Translations under genes and position numbers: made by a program
The notes under the pieces: model-generated
Database searches by the model: none
Seen by the model: the letters and a program-made list of their open reading frames with translations, nothing else
What the model was told of the DNA's origin: nothing
In this document: one piece after another, positions 3,906 to 47,659 of the stretch
Position numbering within the stretch: the stretch's first letter is position 1
Layout of the letters: each line of letters opens with the position of its first letter
NCBI RefSeq assembly: GCF_041821065.1
Contig: NZ_JBGUAX010000007.1
Coordinates: forward strand, 248,001 to 312,000
Origin: Egicoccus sp. AB-alg2
GTDB lineage: Bacteria; Actinomycetota; Nitriliruptoria; Nitriliruptorales; Nitriliruptoraceae
Direction of reading: 5' to 3'
Length of the DNA: 64,000 bases

Positions 3906-5699
3906 GTGATCGAGCATCCCGAGGTCGACGTGGTCACCGTCGGTGCCGGCTGGACGGCCGGCATCGCGGCCCAGCAACTGACCGCGCAGGGCCTGACGGT
4001 CGTGTCGATCGAGAAGGGTCGTGCCCAGTGGACGTGGCCCGACTTCGCCCACAACCACGACGAACTGCGGTTCACGGCCCGCCACGAGCTGATGCACGAG
4101 ATCGAGCGCGAGACGTGGACCTGGCGGCCCAACGACCGGATGCCGTCGCTGCCGATGCGTCAGTACGGCGCCTTCCACCCCGGCTCCAACGTCGGCGGCG
4201 CCGGCGTGCACTGGTCCGCCGTGATGTGGCGGTTCCTGCCGACCGACTTCGACTACCTGTCCCACCACACGGAGCGCTACGGCCGCGACCTGCTGCCGGA
4301 CGGGCACAGCAACCAGGACTGGCCGGTCGGCTACGACGAGCTCGAACCCCACTTCACCCAGTTCGAGGTGGACACGGGTATGTCGGGTCAGACCGGCAAC
4401 CTCAACGGCGAGATCCTCGAGGGCGGAAACCCCTACGAGGGGCCCCGCAGCCGGCCGTATCCGTTGCCGCCACTGGCGCCGACCCGGGCCGGGCTGCGGT
4501 TCGCCGAGGCCGCCGAGGCACTCGGCTACACCCCGTTCGTGCAGCCCTCGTCGATCCTGTCCGAGGGCTACACCGACATGTCGGGCGAACCGCGGGCGGG
4601 CTGCGTGTACTGCGGGTTCTGCACCCGCTACGGCTGCCACGTGGACGCGAAGTCCTCCGCGCTGACGGCCCACATCCCGATGGCGCTGGACACCGGCCGC
4701 TACGAGATCCGTACCCGCTGCTACGTGACCCGGATCCCCGTCGACGACACGGGGCTGGCGACGGGCATCGAGTACCTCGGCCCCGACGGGCGCGAGCACT
4801 TCCAGCCCGCCCGCACCGTGCTGGTCAGCGGCTACACGATGTCCAACGTGCGCCTGCTGATGCTCTCGACCAGCGACGCCCACCCCGACGGCATCGGCAA
4901 CGCGCGGGGGCAGCTCGGGCGCAACGCGACCCACCAGATCTGGCAGCAGCCCACCATCGGCCGCTTCGACGGCGAACGCTTCAACACCTACATGGGCAAC
5001 ACGTCCACTTCGCACGCGATCTACGACTTCGCCGGCGACGTGTTCGACCACAGCGGCCTGGGGTTCATCGGCGGCGGCCAGTTGTTCGCCGACGCGGGTG
5101 AACGGCTGCCGATCGGCACGGTCGAGGGCATCCCCACGGCACAGGGCGAGGGCGCGGAGACCGCGGACGGCGAGCCACGCGAATGGGGCCAGGCCTTCAA
5201 GGACCGCATCCGTCACTGGGACTCGTACATCCCGATCACGATGCAGGCCGAGAGCCCGGCCTACGAGTTCAACCGCTTCGACCTCGATCCGACCTACACG
5301 GACTTCTTGGGGCGTCCGTTGCTGCGGATCACGTTCGACTGGACCGACAACGAGCGGCGCATGTACGCGTTCATCGCCGAGCGCGCCATGGAGATCATGG
5401 ACCGGATGCAGCCGACCGCCCGCGTCGACAACCCGGAGATCGAGCCCTACAACGTCGTCGACTACCAGTCCACGCACATCCAGGGCGGCGCCATCATGGG
5501 CACCGATCCGTCCAACTCGGTCACCAACCGCTACGGGCAGGTGTGGGACGCACCCAACGTCGTGGTGACCGGGGCGGCGCTGTTCCCGCAGAACCCCGGC
5601 GCGAACCCCACGGCCACCGTGAACGCGCTGATGTACCACACGCTCGAAGCGATGCGTGAGCAGAACTACTTCCGCGCTCCGGGTGAGCTGCTGTCGTGA
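3906..5699 (+). CDS. GMC-family FAD dehydrogenase, gluconate/sugar dehydrogenase large subunit type
   Basis: A 597-residue flavoprotein predicted to oxidise a sugar, sugar acid or alcohol outside the cytoplasm and pass electrons on. The dinucleotide fold VGAGWTAG lies at the N-terminus and the C-terminal GMC signature ends in QNPGANPTATVNAL. A cysteine set C233-x2-C236-x2-C239-x4-C244 is seen; comparable cysteines in FAD-glucose and fructose dehydrogenases hold a [3Fe-4S] cluster, which I infer here. It has no signal peptide, consistent with co-export by the Tat-bearing partner. GTG 3906 is the first usable start, and the stop overlaps the cupredoxin gene (GTGA). Confidence 0.88.
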   Translation: MIEHPEVDVVTVGAGWTAGIAAQQLTAQGLTVVSIEKGRAQWTWPDFAHNHDELRFTARHELMHEIERETWTWRPNDRMPSLPMRQYGAFHPGSNVGGAGVHWSAVMWRFLPTDFDYLSHHTERYGRDLLPDGHSNQDWPVGYDELEPHFTQFEVDTGMSGQTGNLNGEILEGGNPYEGPRSRPYPLPPLAPTRAGLRFAEAAEALGYTPFVQPSSILSEGYTDMSGEPRAGCVYCGFCTRYGCHVDAKSSALTAHIPMALDTGRYEIRTRCYVTRIPVDDTGLATGIEYLGPDGREHFQPARTVLVSGYTMSNVRLLMLSTSDAHPDGIGNARGQLGRNATHQIWQQPTIGRFDGERFNTYMGNTSTSHAIYDFAGDVFDHSGLGFIGGGQLFADAGERLPIGTVEGIPTAQGEGAETADGEPREWGQAFKDRIRHWDSYIPITMQAESPAYEFNRFDLDPTYTDFLGRPLLRITFDWTDNERRMYAFIAERAMEIMDRMQPTARVDNPEIEPYNVVDYQSTHIQGGAIMGTDPSNSVTNRYGQVWDAPNVVVTGAALFPQNPGANPTATVNALMYHTLEAMREQNYFRAPGELLS

Positions 5700-39208: not shown

Positions 39209-39212
<4 letters not shown>

Positions 39213-40279
39213 CGGCCCTTGCCGCGCAGCGCGTCGATCGCCTCCTCGACGGTCGCGACCCCGATCACGTCGAGGTCCGGTGGTGCCGTCGTCAGCGCCT
39301 GGTCGAGCTGCGACGCGGGGACCAGGACCACGTCCGCGCCGTACTCGGCCGCGGCCAGCATCTTCTCCGGCACCCCGCCGACCGGGCCGACCCGGCCGTC
39401 GGCGTCCACGCTGCCGGTGCCCAGCACGGTGCGTCCCCGCAGCAGGTCCTCCTCGGCCAGCAGGTCGTACACCGTCACGGCGACCATCATGCCGGCGCTG
39501 GGACCGCCGATGCGGGTCGTCGACGCGAGGCGGACGTCGAACGGCAACTCGATGTCGTAGACGGCCGTCTCCACCGAGATGCCCATCGCGGGGAAGTCGA
39601 CGCCGGGCAGTTCGCCGAGGACGACCGAGGTCTGGATCGTCTCCTCCCCGCGGCGGACCTCCAGCGCGATCTGCTCGCCGACGGCGCCGGCGCGCGTGCG
39701 GGCCTGGATCTCCTCGGCGGCGACGACCGCCTGCCCGTCGACGGCGACGATGACGTCGCGCGGCTGCAGGACCCCGTCGGCCGGGCTGCCGGGCAGCACG
39801 CTGACGACCACGGGTTCGGACAGGATCGTCGTCTCCACCCCTGCGGCCTGCGCCCCGATGACCGCGGCGATCTCGAACTGCCGGCCGAAGACCTCGCGCT
39901 GCCCGGCGAAGAAGGTGTCCCGGTCGACGTCCGGCGGGAACACCTGCGCGAGCGGGATGAGCCGGCGCTGGTCGGAGACGGCCGCCCGCAACGACTGCAA
40001 GGTCGGCTGTTGGCGCAGGAACACGGTCAGCAGCGACGCGCTGCCGTCGAGTTCGGTCGTCTCCGTCCCCTCGATCTCCAGGAGCGGTTCGATCTCCGTC
40101 GGACCGCCGGGGACGTACTCCACGTAGGGCAGCGGCACCAGCACCGCCGCCCACAGCACGATCGCCAGCGTCAGCGTGTAGAAGCCCACCCGCCACCACG
40201 ACCGGGGCCGCGGTCGTGTGGGCGGCGTGGGCTCGGGAACCGGCGGTGGGCCCGACGTCGTCACGTCCGGCTGGCTCAC
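39209..40279 (-). CDS. Membrane-anchored PDZ - Lon-type serine protease
   Basis: A 356-residue protein. A Pro-rich N-terminus leads to a membrane helix (about residues 32-50), a PDZ domain (about 150-215, [23 protein letters not shown]) and a Lon protease domain. Catalytic Ser261 lies in GGPSAGMM and Lys306 in [10 protein letters not shown]. It is the YlbL type common in Gram-positive bacteria, acting outside the cytoplasm on envelope proteins. It overlaps the site-2 protease gene by four bases, and the two are likely co-expressed. Confidence 0.92.
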
Positions 40280-41478
40280 GACGCCGGCTCCGTGGCCTTG
40301 TCCGGTGCGGGCGTGCCACCGTTGCGGCGCAGTGCCGTGAGGGCGCGTGCCACCTCGCGTTCGGTGACCACGCCGACGTCACGCCCGTCGGCGTGCAGCC
40401 GCACGGCGTGCACCTTGCCGGAGAAGGCGGCGATCAGGTCGCGGACGTCGTCGTCCAGGCCGACCCGCGGCAGGTGGTCGACGTGCTGGAGCAGGTCGCG
40501 GGCCACCCGGGCCGCGCGGTCGGTCGGGTGCAGCTCGACGAGCTCACGCACCGAGAGGACCCCGGCGAGGTGGCCGTTGGGGCCGCTCCCGAGGGGCGCG
40601 TCGCCCGTCGGGTGGTCCGCGGCGACGGGCAGCAGCGTCCGACCGGGCGCGACCGTGTCCGGGTCCAGCAGGTGCAGCGGCTGGTCGGGGTGGACCGCGT
40701 CGGGCAGCCGACCGACGAGGTCGCGGGCCGCCCGACCCTCGAGGAGCGCGTCCACGTCGCTCTGGCGGATCTCGGCCCGCGCCGCCGACCACAGGAAGAA
40801 GCCGACGGCGAGCCACATCAACGCGCCGAAGAGCCCGTCCGTGCCGGCGACCTGCACGGCCCGTACGCCCAGCAGCATCAGCCCGATCGCCAGCGCCTGA
40901 CCGGCGCGGGCGGCGATGCGCAGCGCGCGCCGACGGTCCTTCAGCAGCCACCACAGGCCGGCGCGCAGTACCCGGCCGCCGTCCAGCGGGGCGCCGGGGA
41001 CGAGGTTGAACACGGCCAGCACGACGTTGACCCAGGCCAGCAGGCCCGCCACCTCGGCGATCGGCGCGGCCGCGGCGGCGGGCAGCGACCACGTCGCCCA
41101 CGTCCCGAACAGGCCGAAGGCCGCGCCGCACACGAGGCTGATCCAGGGGCCGACCGCGGCCACGACGAACTCGTCACGAGGCGTCTCGGACGCGGCGTGC
41201 ATCTCCGTCACGCCGCCGAACAGGAACAGCGTGATGCGCGGCACCTCGAGGCCGCGGTGGCGCGCCTCGAGGGCGTGCGCCACCTCGTGGGCCAGGATCG
41301 AGGCGATGAACAACAGGCAGCCGATCCCGGCCATGACGATGGCGGTCGACAGCGCGTGCGACTCCCGGAACCGCGCCGCGAAGAACCAGGCCACCAGCGC
41401 GGCGAACGGCACCAACGACACGTCGAGACGCACCTCGACGCCACGGATGCGGGTGAGCCGAACGGCGCGGGAGAACAT
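40276..41478 (-). CDS. Site-2 protease family zinc metalloprotease with CBS domains (M50B)
   Basis: A 400-residue intramembrane protease. H64-E65-x2-H68 (HEVAH) and the third ligand Asp166 in [11 protein letters not shown] are intact, across about six membrane helices. The C-terminal 170 residues form two CBS motifs that may bind adenosine nucleotides. The layout matches mycobacterial Rip3-like proteins. It precedes the Lon-PDZ protease gene with a four-base overlap, so a joint role in regulated envelope proteolysis is plausible. Confidence 0.9.
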
Positions 41479-41603
41479 GCGGGGACGGTACCCGCAACGC
41501 CGCTGGTCCCGATGGCCGACCCGCTGGCCGCCGCGCGCCCCCCGTCGTCCGTCCGTGCCGCACGCCTCCGCACGCGCCCCGCGCGAGGGCTACGGTCGGC
41601 GTC

Positions 41604-42788
41604 ATGAACCTCGCTGACTCGCTCATCAACGACCTCATCGACTTCACGGACGAGCAGGGTGTGCTCTCGTTCTACGTGGGGCACACACCGGCTCAGGCAG
41701 CCGACCCGCAGCCGACCCAGCCGATCGAGATCCGCAACCAGGTCCGGGACCTGAAGGCACGACTCGCGGAGAGCGACAAGGACCTCGCCGCTGCCGTGGA
41801 GAGACGCATCGACGCGCTCGACGGCGAACTCGAGCGACTCCTCGATCCCAAGGCCCACGGGCAGGGGCGGGCGTTGTTCGTGGGCGTGGCCTCGGGTCGC
41901 ACCGCCTCCGTGGCGCTGCAGATCCCCTTCCGGGAGCGCGTGATCCACCACGAACGGGCCTTCCTGCGTCCGCTCGTGGCCGCCGTCGACGAGGGGCGCC
42001 CCGCGGGCATCCTCGTGCTCTCGCGCAGCGGCTCGCGCCTGCTGCACTGGAAGGTCGGTGAAGCCGAGGAACTGACCAGCGACACGTTCGAGCTCACCGA
42101 CGCGCAGCTCGCCGACCGCAAGAGCGGTCCGTCGCCGGCCGCCCCGCAGATCCAGGGCCACGGCGTCGACCACAAGGAGATGTTCGAGAACCGCGTCGAC
42201 GAGAACCGCAACCGCTGGCTGCGCTCGCTCGTCGACGAGGTCGTCGGCACCGCCAAGGAGCACGGCTGGGACCGGCTGGTGGTGGCCGGCAGCGCCCAGG
42301 TGCGCGAGTACGCGACGAACCTGATCGGCGAGTCCGACGGGCTGCGCGTCATCCAGGCCGACTCGGACTGGGAGCACCAGAGCCCCGCCGCCATCTCCGC
42401 CAGCGTCTGGCCGATCCTGCGTTCGGTCCACGAGGAGCGCGAACACGAACTGGTCGACCTGGTGATGGACCGGGCGCTGTCCAACAACGCCGGTGCCCTG
42501 GGCCTGCTGGACGTCTGCGACGCCCTCAACCAGGGCCGGGTCGCGCACCTGCTGTTCGACGACCGGCTCCAGTTGACCGGCTACCGCTCGTCCGAGGACA
42601 CGCTGCACCCGGAGCTCACCGGTCAGCTCACCCAGTCCGAGGGCGTGGAGTTCCACGAGGAGCCGCTGTTCGTGGAGCGGATGATCGAGAAGGCCGTCGC
42701 CACGGGCGCGGCCATCACCCCGGTCGCGCAGGCCCCGGCGGCGCCGCTGGGCGCGTACGACGGCGTCGCCGCACTGCTGCGGTGGTGA
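41604..42788 (+). CDS. Bacterial aeRF1/Vms1-like ribosome-associated factor
   Basis: A 394-residue protein with three domains resembling archaeo-eukaryotic release factor 1 relatives: an N-terminal segment with the VLSFYVGHTP strand, a central domain with VLVLSRSGSRLLHWKVGE, and a C-terminal domain with NNAGALGLLDVCDALNQGRVAHLLFDDRLQLTGYRS. The C-terminal segment is the most diagnostic. Relatives include Balon-type ribosome hibernation factors and uncharacterised actinobacterial proteins. A GGQ peptide-release motif is not visible. The TPR gene begins eight bases after its stop. Confidence 0.8.
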   Translation: MNLADSLINDLIDFTDEQGVLSFYVGHTPAQAADPQPTQPIEIRNQVRDLKARLAESDKDLAAAVERRIDALDGELERLLDPKAHGQGRALFVGVASGRTASVALQIPFRERVIHHERAFLRPLVAAVDEGRPAGILVLSRSGSRLLHWKVGEAEELTSDTFELTDAQLADRKSGPSPAAPQIQGHGVDHKEMFENRVDENRNRWLRSLVDEVVGTAKEHGWDRLVVAGSAQVREYATNLIGESDGLRVIQADSDWEHQSPAAISASVWPILRSVHEEREHELVDLVMDRALSNNAGALGLLDVCDALNQGRVAHLLFDDRLQLTGYRSSEDTLHPELTGQLTQSEGVEFHEEPLFVERMIEKAVATGAAITPVAQAPAAPLGAYDGVAALLRW

Positions 42789-42795
42789 CGGCGGC

Positions 42796-43707
42796 GTGCC
42801 GGGCATGCGCGACACGTCGGGCATGGACGCGGTCGCCCGGCGACTGAGGGCGGAAGCGGACCAGGTCCTCGAACTGCACGAGGCCGGGGACCTGGACGCC
42901 GCCTTCGCGGCCTGCGAGACGCTGCTGGCGGCGGCGCAGGCCGCGGATCCCGCCGATCCGGTCGTCCGCGAGAGCCTGTTCCTCGCCCGCTTCGAACGCG
43001 CGCTGCTGCTCACGGAGCTCGGTGAGCTGGAGGCGGCCGCGGCGGCCTACGACGACGCGGCGGAGGCCCCGGCGGACCTCGACGACCCGGACCAGCGTCA
43101 CGAGGTCGCGATGGCGCTGCTCAACCGCGGGGTGTGCCTCGACGCCATGGGTGACCACCGCGGCGCGCTGGAGGCCTACGACCGGCTCGTGGTCCGGTTC
43201 GGTGACGCCGACGACCCCGTGACCCGTGACCAGGTCGTGCGTGGTCGGGTCAACCGCGCGGCCGCGTTGCTGGCCCTGGACGAGCTGCACGAGGCGTTGA
43301 CCGTCGCCGACGCCGTCATCGGCGAGCTGGACGCCTCCGAGGCGCTTGGCGCCGAACAGCTCGCCATGGCGATGCGGATCCGCGCCGCAGCGCTGCGTGC
43401 ACTGGACCGCGCCGGCGAGGCGGCCGAGGTCCTGGCGGCCGTCGAGCTCTGCGCCGCCGACGACCCGGCCGCGCGCACGCAACTCGCCTCGGCGCAGCGG
43501 GAGCGGGCCGAGGTGCTCACCGAGCTCGGCCGGCGCGACGAGGCCGTCGCCGTGCTCGACGCCACAGTCCGCCGGCTCGAGGGCGACCCCGACCCGGAGG
43601 TGGCCGAGGCCCGCCTGGAGCTGCTGGACGTGGAGGCCGACCTCCTGGACGAGCTGGGCGACCACGCCCGCGCCCGTGCCGTGCGCGCCGAGCAGGACGA
43701 GGCCTGA
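42796..43707 (+). CDS. Tetratricopeptide-repeat protein
   Basis: A 303-residue, very acidic and Ala-rich all-helical protein with about six TPR-like units (for example LLLTELGELEAAAAAYDDAAE and CLDAMGDHRGALEAYDRLV). TPRs mediate protein contacts. The gene follows the aeRF1-like gene by eight bases, so its product might act with that factor. The start could be GTG 42796 or the ATGs at 42805 or 42823. It converges with the sigma gene. Confidence 0.8.
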   Translation: MPGMRDTSGMDAVARRLRAEADQVLELHEAGDLDAAFAACETLLAAAQAADPADPVVRESLFLARFERALLLTELGELEAAAAAYDDAAEAPADLDDPDQRHEVAMALLNRGVCLDAMGDHRGALEAYDRLVVRFGDADDPVTRDQVVRGRVNRAAALLALDELHEALTVADAVIGELDASEALGAEQLAMAMRIRAAALRALDRAGEAAEVLAAVELCAADDPAARTQLASAQRERAEVLTELGRRDEAVAVLDATVRRLEGDPDPEVAEARLELLDVEADLLDELGDHARARAVRAEQDEA

Positions 43708-43723
43708 CCCGAACGCCGAACGG

Positions 43724-44236
43724 TCAGGCCCGCTCGTCGACCGGTTCCAGCATCGCGAGCAGGTCCTGGCGGGCCCGGGCCACCCGTGAGCGGATGGTGC
43801 CGACGGGTACGCCGCACACCGCCGCCGCCTCGGCGTAGCCGAGCTCCAGCAGCTGGGTCAGCACGAAGGCGCTGCGGCGGTCGTCGTCGAGGGCGCCGAC
43901 CAGGTCCAGGAGCTCGACGTCGCCGGCAGGGTCGGGTTCGACGCGCTCGGTGACCTCGGGCAACCGCCGACGGCGCTGCCGCCGGCGGATCTCGTCCGCG
44001 GCGACGTTGCGTGCGATCGCGAGCAGCCAGGTACGCGCCGACGCGTCACCGCGGAAGCGCGGGGCCGAGCGCATCGCCCGCAGGTAGACCTCCTGCGCCA
44101 GGTCGTCGGCCACCGCGGGCTCGACGAGATGCGCGCAGAACCGCCACACGTCGTCCTGGGTCGCGCGGACGAACGCGGACAGCGCGGCACGGTCGCCGTC
44201 ACCGGCGGCGCGTAGCAGTCGCGTGAGCTCGTCCAT
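43724..44236 (-). CDS. ECF-family RNA polymerase sigma factor
   Basis: A 170-residue sigma factor with regions 2 and 4 only. Region 2 is seen in FCAHLVEPAVADDLAQEVYLRAMRSAPRFRGDASARTWLLAIARNVAADEIRRR; region 4 HTH is AEAAAVCGVPVGTIRSRVARARQDLL. It is divergent from a YcnI-like gene, and a zinc-finger anti-sigma gene lies 1 kb downstream of that at 45264, the natural partner. Together they suggest control of the copper cluster. Confidence 0.92.
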   Translation of the reverse strand: MDELTRLLRAAGDGDRAALSAFVRATQDDVWRFCAHLVEPAVADDLAQEVYLRAMRSAPRFRGDASARTWLLAIARNVAADEIRRRQRRRRLPEVTERVEPDPAGDVELLDLVGALDDDRRSAFVLTQLLELGYAEAAAVCGVPVGTIRSRVARARQDLLAMLEPVDERA

Positions 44237-44374
44237 CGGTTCCCGACCCGGGGACAGGTGTCCGTCCAGCGTACGAGGTGCCGCCGGGCGCGGCGATCGT
44301 GGAACCGGAGCGTGCGCGGCGACGACCACTGCGGCGATGCCGATCCCCGGCAGCCGAATCTGGGAGGAACCCTC

Positions 44375-45067
44375 GTGCGTCGCCGTCTCGTCAGCGTCCT
44401 GTTGCCCGCCGCCGCACTCGTCGGCCTGCTCGCGGCCCCCGCCGCCGCCCACGTCACCGCCAATCCGAACGCCGTGCCGGCCGACGGCTACGCCGCCGTC
44501 TCGCTGCGCGTGCCGCACGGGTGCGGTGACGCCGCGACCACCGAGCTGGCCGTGCAGATGCCCGCCGGCGTGCAGTCGGCGACGCCCGAGCAGGTGCCGG
44601 GCTGGACCGTGCGCACCGTTGTCGGCGAACTCGACGAGCCCTACGACGCGCACGGCGAGACCGTCACCGAGGGCGTCCGCGAGGTGGTGTGGACCGCCGA
44701 GGCAGGCGCCGAGCTCCCCAGCGACCAGTACCGCGAGTTCGGCCTGTCGCTGCGCGTCGGCGGCGAGGACGGCGAGACCCTCTACTTCCCGACCGTGCAG
44801 ACCTGCACGGAGGGTGAGACGGCGTGGGTGGAGATCCCCGACACGGTCGAGCAGTGGGGTGAGCTGGACCGCCCGGCGCCGTACGTGACGCTGACCGGCG
44901 GCGCTGGGCACGGTGACGACGCCGCCGAGGCGTCGGACCTCAGCGACGCCGACCTCGCGGCTGCGGAGACCGGGACCACCGCATCGCTGACCTGGGTGGC
45001 CTTCGCCCTCGGCCTGGTCGGCGCCGTGGCCGGCCTCGGCGCGCTGGCGGTGGCCCGCCGCCGCTGA
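44375..45067 (+). CDS. YcnI-family (DUF1775) copper-binding membrane-anchored protein
   Basis: A 230-residue exported protein. The signal peptide ends APAAAHV, so the mature chain starts with His, the copper-binding residue of YcnI proteins (AHVTANPNAV). The DUF1775 domain continues with RVPHGCG and WTAEAG. A C-terminal helix (TASLTWVAFALGLVGAVAGLGAL) anchors it. GTG 44375 has GGAGGA seven bases upstream, although the frame is open further upstream. It heads the copper cluster. Confidence 0.88.
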   Translation: MRRRLVSVLLPAAALVGLLAAPAAAHVTANPNAVPADGYAAVSLRVPHGCGDAATTELAVQMPAGVQSATPEQVPGWTVRTVVGELDEPYDAHGETVTEGVREVVWTAEAGAELPSDQYREFGLSLRVGGEDGETLYFPTVQTCTEGETAWVEIPDTVEQWGELDRPAPYVTLTGGAGHGDDAAEASDLSDADLAAAETGTTASLTWVAFALGLVGAVAGLGALAVARRR

Positions 45068-45120
45068 CACGTCTGCCCGCCGCCCGGCCGGTCGCTCCCT
45101 CCGGCCGGGTCGGCGTCGTC

Positions 45121-45153
45121 GGCCCCCGGCCGGGCTCCCAGCGGCCGGGGGCC
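45121..45153 (+). terminator. Strong GC hairpin after the YcnI-like gene
   Basis: A perfect 12-bp stem (GGCCCCCGGCCG paired with CGGCCGGGGGCC) around a nine-base loop, 54 bases after the ycnI-type stop. There is no T-run, as is common in high-GC actinobacteria. It sits in the 196-base gap before the anti-sigma gene and could end or attenuate transcription. Confidence 0.6.
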
Positions 45154-45263
45154 GTCGTGCGCTCGCAGCACCGCCCCGGGAACCGAACGGCGGGCTGGAG
45201 CGACCACCTCGACGGTTCCCGCGCCGCCTACCCTCGACGGCGGCCGAACGGAAAGGACGCAGC

Positions 45264-45896
45264 ATGCGCAGCGCGCGCCGCACCGGCTCCCCGTGCGAGC
45301 AGGTCCGGGAGGCACTCTCGGCCGCCCACGACGGCGAGGCCGTCCCGGCCGGTCGGCCCGTCGACGCCCACCTCGCGGGCTGTGAGGGGTGCGCGTCCTT
45401 CGCCGCGTCGCTGGATCGCCTCGACGACCGGGTGCTCGCGGCCCGGGCGCTCCCGGCGGCCGACCTGACGGCCGGTGTGCTGGCCGCGGTGACGGCCGAG
45501 GCACGGGCCGAGCGTGACCGTCGCGTGCTGGAGCTGCGCTGGATCGTGGCTCTGGCCGGCGCCGTGCAGCTGCTGATCGCCCTGCCGCTCGTCCTCGGCG
45601 TCGCCGGTCCGGCCGCGCACGTCGGCCGCGACCTCGGGGCGCTCGAGCTGGCGCTCGGCATCGGGCTGCTGTTCGCGGCCTGGCAGCCCGAGCGCGCCGC
45701 CGGTGTGCTGCCGGTGGCGGCCGTGGTCGCGACCGCGGCCGTGGTCACCGGGGTGCTGGACCTGGCGGCCGGCCGCGCGACACTGCTGCAGGAACTGCCG
45801 CACCTGACGGAGATCGTCGGTGTGCTGGCGCTGTGGGCGCTGACGCGCCGGTTGCCGCGCCCACGGCTCACCGCGCCGATCGGGAGCACTGCGTGA
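45264..45896 (+). CDS. Membrane-anchored zinc-finger (zf-HC2) anti-sigma factor-like protein
   Basis: A 210-residue protein. The N-terminal zf-HC2 motif is H-x3-C-x2-C in DAHLAGCEGCASF (about residues 35-47), with an upstream Cys11 (SPCEQV) completing the zinc site. About four membrane helices follow. It would hold the ECF sigma factor (43724-44236) at the membrane, in the usual sigma/anti-sigma pairing. Its stop overlaps the CopC-CopD gene by GTGA. Confidence 0.82.
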   Translation: MRSARRTGSPCEQVREALSAAHDGEAVPAGRPVDAHLAGCEGCASFAASLDRLDDRVLAARALPAADLTAGVLAAVTAEARAERDRRVLELRWIVALAGAVQLLIALPLVLGVAGPAAHVGRDLGALELALGIGLLFAAWQPERAAGVLPVAAVVATAAVVTGVLDLAAGRATLLQELPHLTEIVGVLALWALTRRLPRPRLTAPIGSTA

Positions 45897-47659
45897 GCCA
45901 GGGCCACCTCGAGCGCCGGGCAGGCGGGCCGACGACGGCCCGCCTGCTGGTGGTGCCGCTGCTGGCCCTGGTGTGGCTCACCGCCCTTGCCGTGCCGGCC
46001 GCCGCCCACGCGGTGCTCGTGGAGACGCTTCCAGCCGACGGCACGGCGGCGCAGACCCCGCCCGAGACGGTGGTGCTGCGCTTCAACGAGCCGGTCCAGG
46101 TGCCGGCCGACGGCATTCGCGTCTTCGACTCGTCGCCGACGCGGGTGGACCGCGGGCCCGCCGACACCGCCGACGCCACCGAGGTGGCCGTCGCGCTGCC
46201 GCCGGACCTGCCCGACGGCGGCTACGTGGTCACCTACCGGGTCATCTCGGCCGACAGCCACCCGGTCGCCGGCACGTTCACCTTCACCGTCGGTGCGGGC
46301 GAGCCGGTCGACGAGGCCGTCGTGGCCGACCTGTTCGGCGGCGCGGGGCAGGCCTGGACGGGCACCGTCGGGCCCGTCCTGCGCGGGCTGAGCTACCTCG
46401 GCGTGCTCCTCGCGGCCGGGGCAGCGGCGTTCTCGGCCTGGGTGGCCGGGTCGGTGCTCGACCGTCGCGCGGTGGGGACCTGGGCCGTGCGTGGCGCCGT
46501 GGTCGGTGCGGTCGCCAGCCTGCTGGCCGTCCCGGTCCAGACCGTGGCGGTCACGGGACGGGACCTGGCCGGGGTCTTCACGCCCGGCGGCGGCCTGGGC
46601 GAGACGCTCGTCTTCAGCTCCTTCGGGCAGAGCACGCTGCTGCGGCTGGTGGCACTGGCCGCCTTCGTCCTGGCGTGGCAGCGCCTCGGCGACGCGCACC
46701 AGGGCGGCACGCGCGCCCACCTCGAGGTGCTCCTGACCGGTGCCCTGGCCGCCGGCTCGTACCTGCTCGACGGGCACCAGCGCGCGGTCGAGCCCACGTG
46801 GCTGCTGATGGGCGCCGACCTGGTGCACCTGCTCGGGGCCGCCGTGTGGCTGGGTGGTCTGGTGCTGCTGTTCGGTGCCGTGCGGACCCGCCGGCTCGAC
46901 GACGACCCCGTCGGCGCCGCCGGCCTGGTGGCGCGCTTCAGCCGGGTGGCCTTCTGGTCCGTCGTCGCCCTGAGCGCGGCGGGGATCGCCATGTCGGTCG
47001 TGCTCGTCCGGGTTCCGCGGGCACTGACCGCCACCGGCTACGGCTGGACGCTGGTGGCCAAGGTCGCCATCGTCGCCGTCGTGCTGCTGGCCGCCGCCTA
47101 CAACCGCTGGCGCCTGGAACCGGCCATCGCGGCGCGCCTGGCGCCGGCCGGCGGCGCCGTCGACGTCGACTCGCCCGACACGGACGTGCGCGAGCGTCGT
47201 TCCCGCCGGGCCTGGGCGCAGTTGCGCACCACCCTGGCCGTCGAGGTCGTGGGGGTGCTGGTCGTGGCGTTGCTGACCGGCTTCCTGGTCTCGCAGCGGC
47301 CGGCCGCGGAAGCGGCCGGCGTCACCGGCGCCTACCAGACGACCGTCGCTCTCACCGAGGAGTACGACGTCGACCTGGTCGTCGACCCGAACCAGGTCGG
47401 TCTGAACGCCATCCACGTCTACGTGCTCGAGCAGACCGGGCAGCCGACCGGCGACGTCCAGGACCTGCGCCTCGAGCTGACCTACGTGCCCCAGCAGATC
47501 GGCCCGATCGAGATCGAGCCGTTCCTCGTCGGTCCCGGGCACTGGACGGCCAACATCGAGGACCTGCGCTTCGCCGGCGAGTGGGAGGTCCGGGTCGTGG
47601 CCGGGATCGACCGGTTCACCGAGGCCGACGTCCGCATCCCGGTCGTCGTCAACCGCTGA
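45893..47659 (+). CDS. CopC-CopD fusion protein (copper resistance/import)
   Basis: A 588-residue protein. A signal peptide ends AAHAVL, making the mature N-terminal His of CopC available for copper. The CopC domain (about residues 35-130) includes VVLRFNEPVQV and SADSHPVAGTFTF. Eight or so helices of CopD follow (HLLGAAVWLGGLVLL, YNRWRLEP). The C-terminus (about 490-588) is an extra β-rich YtkA-like domain. It overlaps the anti-sigma gene by GTGA and precedes the second YcnI-like gene by 50 bases. Confidence 0.9.
   Translation: MSQGHLERRAGGPTTARLLVVPLLALVWLTALAVPAAAHAVLVETLPADGTAAQTPPETVVLRFNEPVQVPADGIRVFDSSPTRVDRGPADTADATEVAVALPPDLPDGGYVVTYRVISADSHPVAGTFTFTVGAGEPVDEAVVADLFGGAGQAWTGTVGPVLRGLSYLGVLLAAGAAAFSAWVAGSVLDRRAVGTWAVRGAVVGAVASLLAVPVQTVAVTGRDLAGVFTPGGGLGETLVFSSFGQSTLLRLVALAAFVLAWQRLGDAHQGGTRAHLEVLLTGALAAGSYLLDGHQRAVEPTWLLMGADLVHLLGAAVWLGGLVLLFGAVRTRRLDDDPVGAAGLVARFSRVAFWSVVALSAAGIAMSVVLVRVPRALTATGYGWTLVAKVAIVAVVLLAAAYNRWRLEPAIAARLAPAGGAVDVDSPDTDVRERRSRRAWAQLRTTLAVEVVGVLVVALLTGFLVSQRPAAEAAGVTGAYQTTVALTEEYDVDLVVDPNQVGLNAIHVYVLEQTGQPTGDVQDLRLELTYVPQQIGPIEIEPFLVGPGHWTANIEDLRFAGEWEVRVVAGIDRFTEADVRIPVVVNR

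Follow-up and report, generated by a model that had tools for sequence, protein, structure and literature searches.

A Probable Balon-type Ribosome Hibernation Factor and the Acidic TPR Protein Encoded Beside It in Egicoccus sp. AB-alg2

A stretch of 64,000 nucleotides from Egicoccus sp. AB-alg2 (the window) was analyzed. One of its genes very probably encodes a Balon-type ribosome hibernation factor, the product of the TPR gene downstream being at most an accessory to it (Table 1). Judged by its sequence, the Balon gene appears to be an ordinary one, adding a member to a family described in 2024. It extends the MSMEG_1130-type Balon to another actinobacterial order, in which the locus is conserved and the TPR neighbor is an optional, lineage-specific addition.

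Table 1. Features of the Balon locus (positions are those of the window)
Feature	Position	Strand	Basis
PDZ and Lon-C (S16) protease, SepM-like (below cut-off), conserved neighbor	39209..40279	-	Pfam, neighborhood comparison
M50-family membrane protease with weak CBS match, divergent to Balon	40276..41478	-	Pfam, neighborhood comparison
Divergent intergenic stretch between M50-CBS gene and Balon	41479..41603	.	Alignment, promoter scan
Balon/baeRF (aeRF1-superfamily) gene, MSMEG_1130-type ribosome hibernation factor, 394 aa	41604..42788	+	Pfam, NCBIfam, PDB homology
Acidic TPR protein, 303 aa from GTG	42796..43707	+	Pfam TPR models, predicted all-alpha superhelix

Family Assignment and Release Loop of the Balon Protein

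The preliminary description had proposed an aeRF1-type factor paired with an acidic TPR protein. Both open reading frames were found at the positions of Table 1, and the first product matched three baeRF models of Pfam: PF18854 (baeRF_family10, the best Pfam match, 58.9 bits against a gathering score of 27.1), PF18846 (44.3 against 27), and PF18845 (34.1 against 31.5). A weak match to eRF1_3 was seen at the C terminus (15.0 bits against a gathering score of 25.8). The NCBIfam model NF052288, which stands for the MSMEG_1130-family ribosome hibernation factor, was matched with 455.9 bits (E = 1.1e-136) over positions 2-387 of 387. Because this score lies 24 bits under the curated naming cut-off of 480, the protein was placed in the wider Balon/baeRF family and not in the equivalog MSMEG_1130_fam_RHF. 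The orthologue of G003, a genome of the same genus, is 84.5% identical and reached 498.7 bits, above the cut-off. When the PDB was searched with phmmer, MSMEG_1130 Balon on the ribosome (8v9j, 8v9l; E = 8.5e-45) was the sole match up to E = 10, with residues 11-375 of the MSMEG_1130 chain aligned to residues 7-394 of the window protein. The two alignments cover the full three-domain aeRF1-like chain. The protein is thus a bacterial aeRF1 relative of the Balon kind, as had been suggested, but "uncharacterised" no longer describes the family, as members of it have been solved on the ribosome (MSMEG_1130; 8v9j, 8v9l).

NF052288 detected one copy in the window genome (4.84 Mb in 29 contigs), and the sole match of this genome to the Rv2629 family was the same gene. 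In a maximum likelihood tree of 38 homologues, the Balons of the order grouped together (23 rows, support 100/99), adjoining a group with MSMEG_1130-like rows (support of that group 87/51) and away from the class's other baeRF proteins. Balon is conserved through the order and is under purifying selection, with an NG86 dN/dS of about 0.15 (0.095/0.618) between the window genome and G002. Neither Balon nor the TPR protein found a match in PADLOC or PHROGs at E 0.01, so that there was no sign of a defense or phage role for either of them. An AlphaFold model of Balon, built on an alignment of two rows only (the window protein and L057), was poor (mean pLDDT 48.5, pTM 0.39). The model was therefore not used as evidence for the presumed three-domain arrangement. 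Foldseek on this model ranked 8v9l and 8v9j first at a TM score of about 0.3 and an rmsd of about 21, and the top matches included Balon of Psychrobacter urativorans and eRF1.

Like the characterized Balons, the window protein contains neither GGQ nor NIKS; the absence of a GGQ loop, already pointed out in the preliminary description, was confirmed. Across 28 aligned relatives, a set that omits L033 and nine divergent rows of the 38, 13 columns were invariant, including the C-terminal L392-R393-W394, and no glutamine was invariant or 90% conserved. The well-conserved catalytic-loop glutamine described for PF18854 in PMC6514570 was thus not retained in these rows. GGQ strings in the Balon chains of G002, G019, G012, and G013 were discarded because their positions (residues 291-339) are not in the release loop. 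A GGQ within the middle-domain release loop was seen in 1 of the 28 sequences, the Balon of the order-mate G035 (L046, residues 186-188), where it stands five residues ahead of a conserved phenylalanine. We take this position to be the register of the GGQ of eRF1. It may be a chance occurrence or may mark a release-competent Balon.

It is highly improbable that the window protein works as a rescue factor or an active peptidyl-tRNA hydrolase instead of a hibernation factor. Its best Pfam match is indeed to baeRF family 10, which Burroughs and Aravind singled out as possibly active on account of a well-conserved glutamine (PMC6514570), and the loop GGQ of G035 would fit such an activity. Against this stand the missing GGQ of the window protein itself, the lack of a conserved glutamine, and the occurrence of a loop GGQ in only 1 of 28 relatives, which make hibernation a better reading than release. 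The ribosome-resting role favored in the preliminary description fits accordingly better than peptide release and agrees with the published Balon structures (PMC10901736): MSMEG_1130, the closest solved relative, lacks GGQ and inhibits translation, and ribosomes with Balon bound have an inert center. An HP motif, a bL27 trap, and an EF-Tu beta-loop are further features named there for Balon.

By homology, the window Balon would bind ribosomes, contact EF-Tu, and be used under stress. It would enter the A site when a ribosome is idle or stalled, and would do so without reading the mRNA. The N-terminal domain would contact the decoding center, the middle domain, with its release loop devoid of GGQ, would lie beside the inert peptidyl-transferase center, and the C-terminal domain would meet EF-Tu(GDP). 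Occupancy of the A site would block translation and protect the ribosomes in stress. The TPR gene is predicted to provide an acidic superhelix, probably often co-transcribed with Balon, that may serve as a scaffold or modulator or may merely share the transcript. An accessory function would be the most to be expected of it, since the gene is confined to the order among the genomes searched and dispensable there.

The TPR Gene and Its Association with Balon

The second gene was borne out as encoding an acidic TPR protein. TPR_1, TPR_8, and TPR_14 scored above their cut-offs, indicating tandem TPR hairpins, and the product, with a pI of 4.31 and a net charge of about -36, ranked first in acidity among the 47 genes that a crude call gave for the window. 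All 21 homologues compared (the window protein included, some partial) were acidic, with pI values of 4.11-4.55. The spacing from the Balon stop to the GTG at 42796 is seven bases and not eight, as had been stated. In G002 the homologous start is an ATG seven bases past the Balon stop; its counterpart in the window, by alignment, is the ATG at 42823, which follows the Balon stop by 34 bases. The start in the window is therefore uncertain, and the alignment suggests that the homologous start is probably this ATG. The protein was confidently predicted to fold into 14 helices that form an all-alpha superhelix (mean pLDDT 93.1). Foldseek returned general superhelix matches, among them consensus or designed TPR repeats, O-GlcNAc transferase, and LGN, a predicted resemblance that points to no single function, and phmmer against the PDB gave nothing at E 0.001. 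The gene is under purifying selection in the genus (NG86 dN/dS between the window genome and G002 0.17, 0.162/0.936). G003 is a genome of the same genus in one contig; there an early stop leaves about 90 codons of the TPR gene (L067:6400-6954), with the sigma gene close behind it and an intact Balon beside it.

Presence of the two genes was counted in 36 genomes of the order, many of them incomplete. Balon fragments at contig ends (G001, G024) were counted, and weak partial NF052288 matches (G015, G022, G027, and a second one in G016; E 3.7e-5 to 9e-4) were not. Both genes were present in 21 of the 36 genomes, and 19 of these 21 had them adjacent on the same strand, so that the proposed pairing holds beyond chance. 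Of the other two, G007 has each gene at the end of a contig, as would fit adjacency, and G011 has them at separate places. A binning error was considered for the separate Balon of G011. Its position inside the family in the tree makes a move the likelier explanation, and the contig could still be mis-binned. Balon occurred without the TPR gene in five genomes (G004, G005, G017, G035, and, as a fragment only, G001) and the TPR gene without this Balon in three, all of genus g9 (G022, G027, G031). Seven genomes had neither, four of them belonging to the small-genome genus g12. With so many incomplete genomes, the lack of a gene in any one of them carries limited weight; completeness is 96-98% for G004, G005, and G035, whose flanking genes are present in the sequence, and 91% for G022. 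Joint presence and absence over the 36 genomes gave a Fisher p of 0.007, a value that ignores relatedness.

In four genomes of genus g11 (G013, G024, G028, G032), a start codon and the Balon stop share 4 bases; in L057, also of g11, the TPR ATG at 5031 is located inside the Balon frame ending at 5037. This arrangement probably couples translation of the two genes in g11. The block around both genes is also syntenic as a whole, and common descent of such a block explains adjacency without function. The Balon-TPR pair is thus real, old within the order, and loose.

Outside the order, no TPR homologue was found with a 21-row profile beside any of the 20 best-scoring Balons. Neighbor genes were called there with a crude script based on GC position in 10 of the 20 neighborhoods; 10 neighbor proteins from 6 of them were scanned, with no match to a TPR model at E 1e-5. 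The search for the TPR protein covered 61 genomes, 36 of them in the order, and the 25 from other families in class and order yielded one weak partial match (G050). The TPR protein is lineage-specific and confined to this order among the genomes searched. No paper on a Balon-TPR pair was among the matches listed in a search of the open literature.

Flanking Genes and Possible Roles of the TPR Protein

The divergent M50-CBS protease gene directly upstream of Balon, followed by the PDZ-Lon protease gene, was found at all 14 loci compared at which Balon is in place (the window and 13 others), except that the short L075 has only the M50-CBS gene within its contig. The M50-CBS gene is the most constant neighbor of Balon in the order, more so than the TPR gene. 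The relocated Balon of G011 is without both protease neighbors, and outside the order an M50/PDZ frame occurred in 1 of 20 neighborhoods (G066), nearly 4 kb away. In all four genomes of genus g9, the TPR gene lies directly against the M50-CBS gene at the place of Balon. The link between Balon and the protease may be functional or mere synteny. In Mycobacterium tuberculosis, an M50-CBS gene, Rv2625c, presumably lies near the Balon homologue Rv2629 in the DosR cluster. The divergent intergenic stretch was only patchily identical to its counterparts in G002 and G003, and a scan of it for promoters and terminators found none, including no consensus sigma-70 promoter. The one gene with an HPF/RaiA domain in the window genome is on another contig, not beside Balon; elsewhere, according to PMC10901736, RaiA/HPF is the most frequent Balon neighbor.

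Apparent M50-PDZ-Lon fusions in one open frame, replacing the two genes that are separate in the window, were observed in G005 (L065:7633-9498), G017 (L066:5702-7708), and G066 (L111:445-2601). In the first two, a match was limited to the first 212 and 238 residues, respectively, of the window M50-CBS protein. On the other side of the locus (43727-47659), a gene for an ECF sigma factor, SigC-like (below cut-off), is convergent to the TPR gene and is followed by genes tentatively read as YcnI-, zinc-finger/membrane-, and CopC-CopD-like, no family match supporting this reading. This copper-type block is kept in several relatives.

The preliminary description had regarded the TPR protein as a possible partner of Balon. 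The pair is common in the order, yet the genes are separable, with five Balon-only and three TPR-only genomes, the G003 truncation beside an intact Balon, the separation in G011, and 0 of 20 neighborhoods outside the order. A dedicated partner, acting as an adaptor, a loader or remover, or a scaffold for hibernating ribosomes, would be consistent with the 19 same-strand pairs, the overlap in g11, the joint distribution, and purifying selection on both genes. For RFH-RtcB loci, PMC6514570 proposes that a TPR protein encoded next to a release-factor-like gene of bacteria serves as a scaffold. Gene order conservation is partly block synteny. We consider such a dedicated Balon partner doubtful, and the narrower proposal of a lineage-specific cofactor that is made from the same transcript and brings Balon onto hibernating ribosomes, takes it off, or clusters it there appears decidedly improbable. 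It is likewise unlikely that the TPR gene belongs functionally to the membrane-protease, ECF-sigma, and copper-type block with Balon as a passenger in between. In g9 the TPR gene does stand between the M50-CBS gene and the sigma or copper-type genes in the absence of Balon (L059, L060; in L061 and L062 only the protease side is visible), but the protease is divergent to Balon even where the TPR gene is missing (G004, G035, G005, G017), and no direct link was seen. At present, loading and release of Balon are linked to EF-Tu(GDP) alone. A cofactor role would make the TPR protein a dedicated partner of Balon in addition to EF-Tu and the ribosome, and control of Balon by it, if real, would open the regulation of these steps to study.

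Comparison with Known Systems

RFH-RtcB loci (PMC6514570) resemble the window locus in having a TPR gene beside a release-factor-like gene; RFH is an unrelated protein of the bacterial RF type, and no RtcB was among the genes examined at the window locus. The middle domain of the window Balon matches baeRF family 10 above the gathering score of PF18854, whereas the glutamine reported for this family as well conserved (PMC6514570) is not conserved in the clade of the window protein. Balon of P. urativorans (AOC03_06830 family, NF052287; 58.1 bits against a cut-off of 330) and the Rv2629 family (NF052289; 44.2 against 320) belong to the same superfamily and represent different subfamilies. G397, with the best-scoring family member found, has no TPR or M50-CBS homologue beside Balon. 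From MSMEG_1130 of Mycolicibacterium smegmatis, the window Balon differs by an identity of 26% (Foldseek alignment), by its 24 bits below the equivalog cut-off, and by the TPR gene that follows it; with MSMEG_1130 it shares near full-length homology, the absence of GGQ and NIKS, and the C-terminal LRW end.
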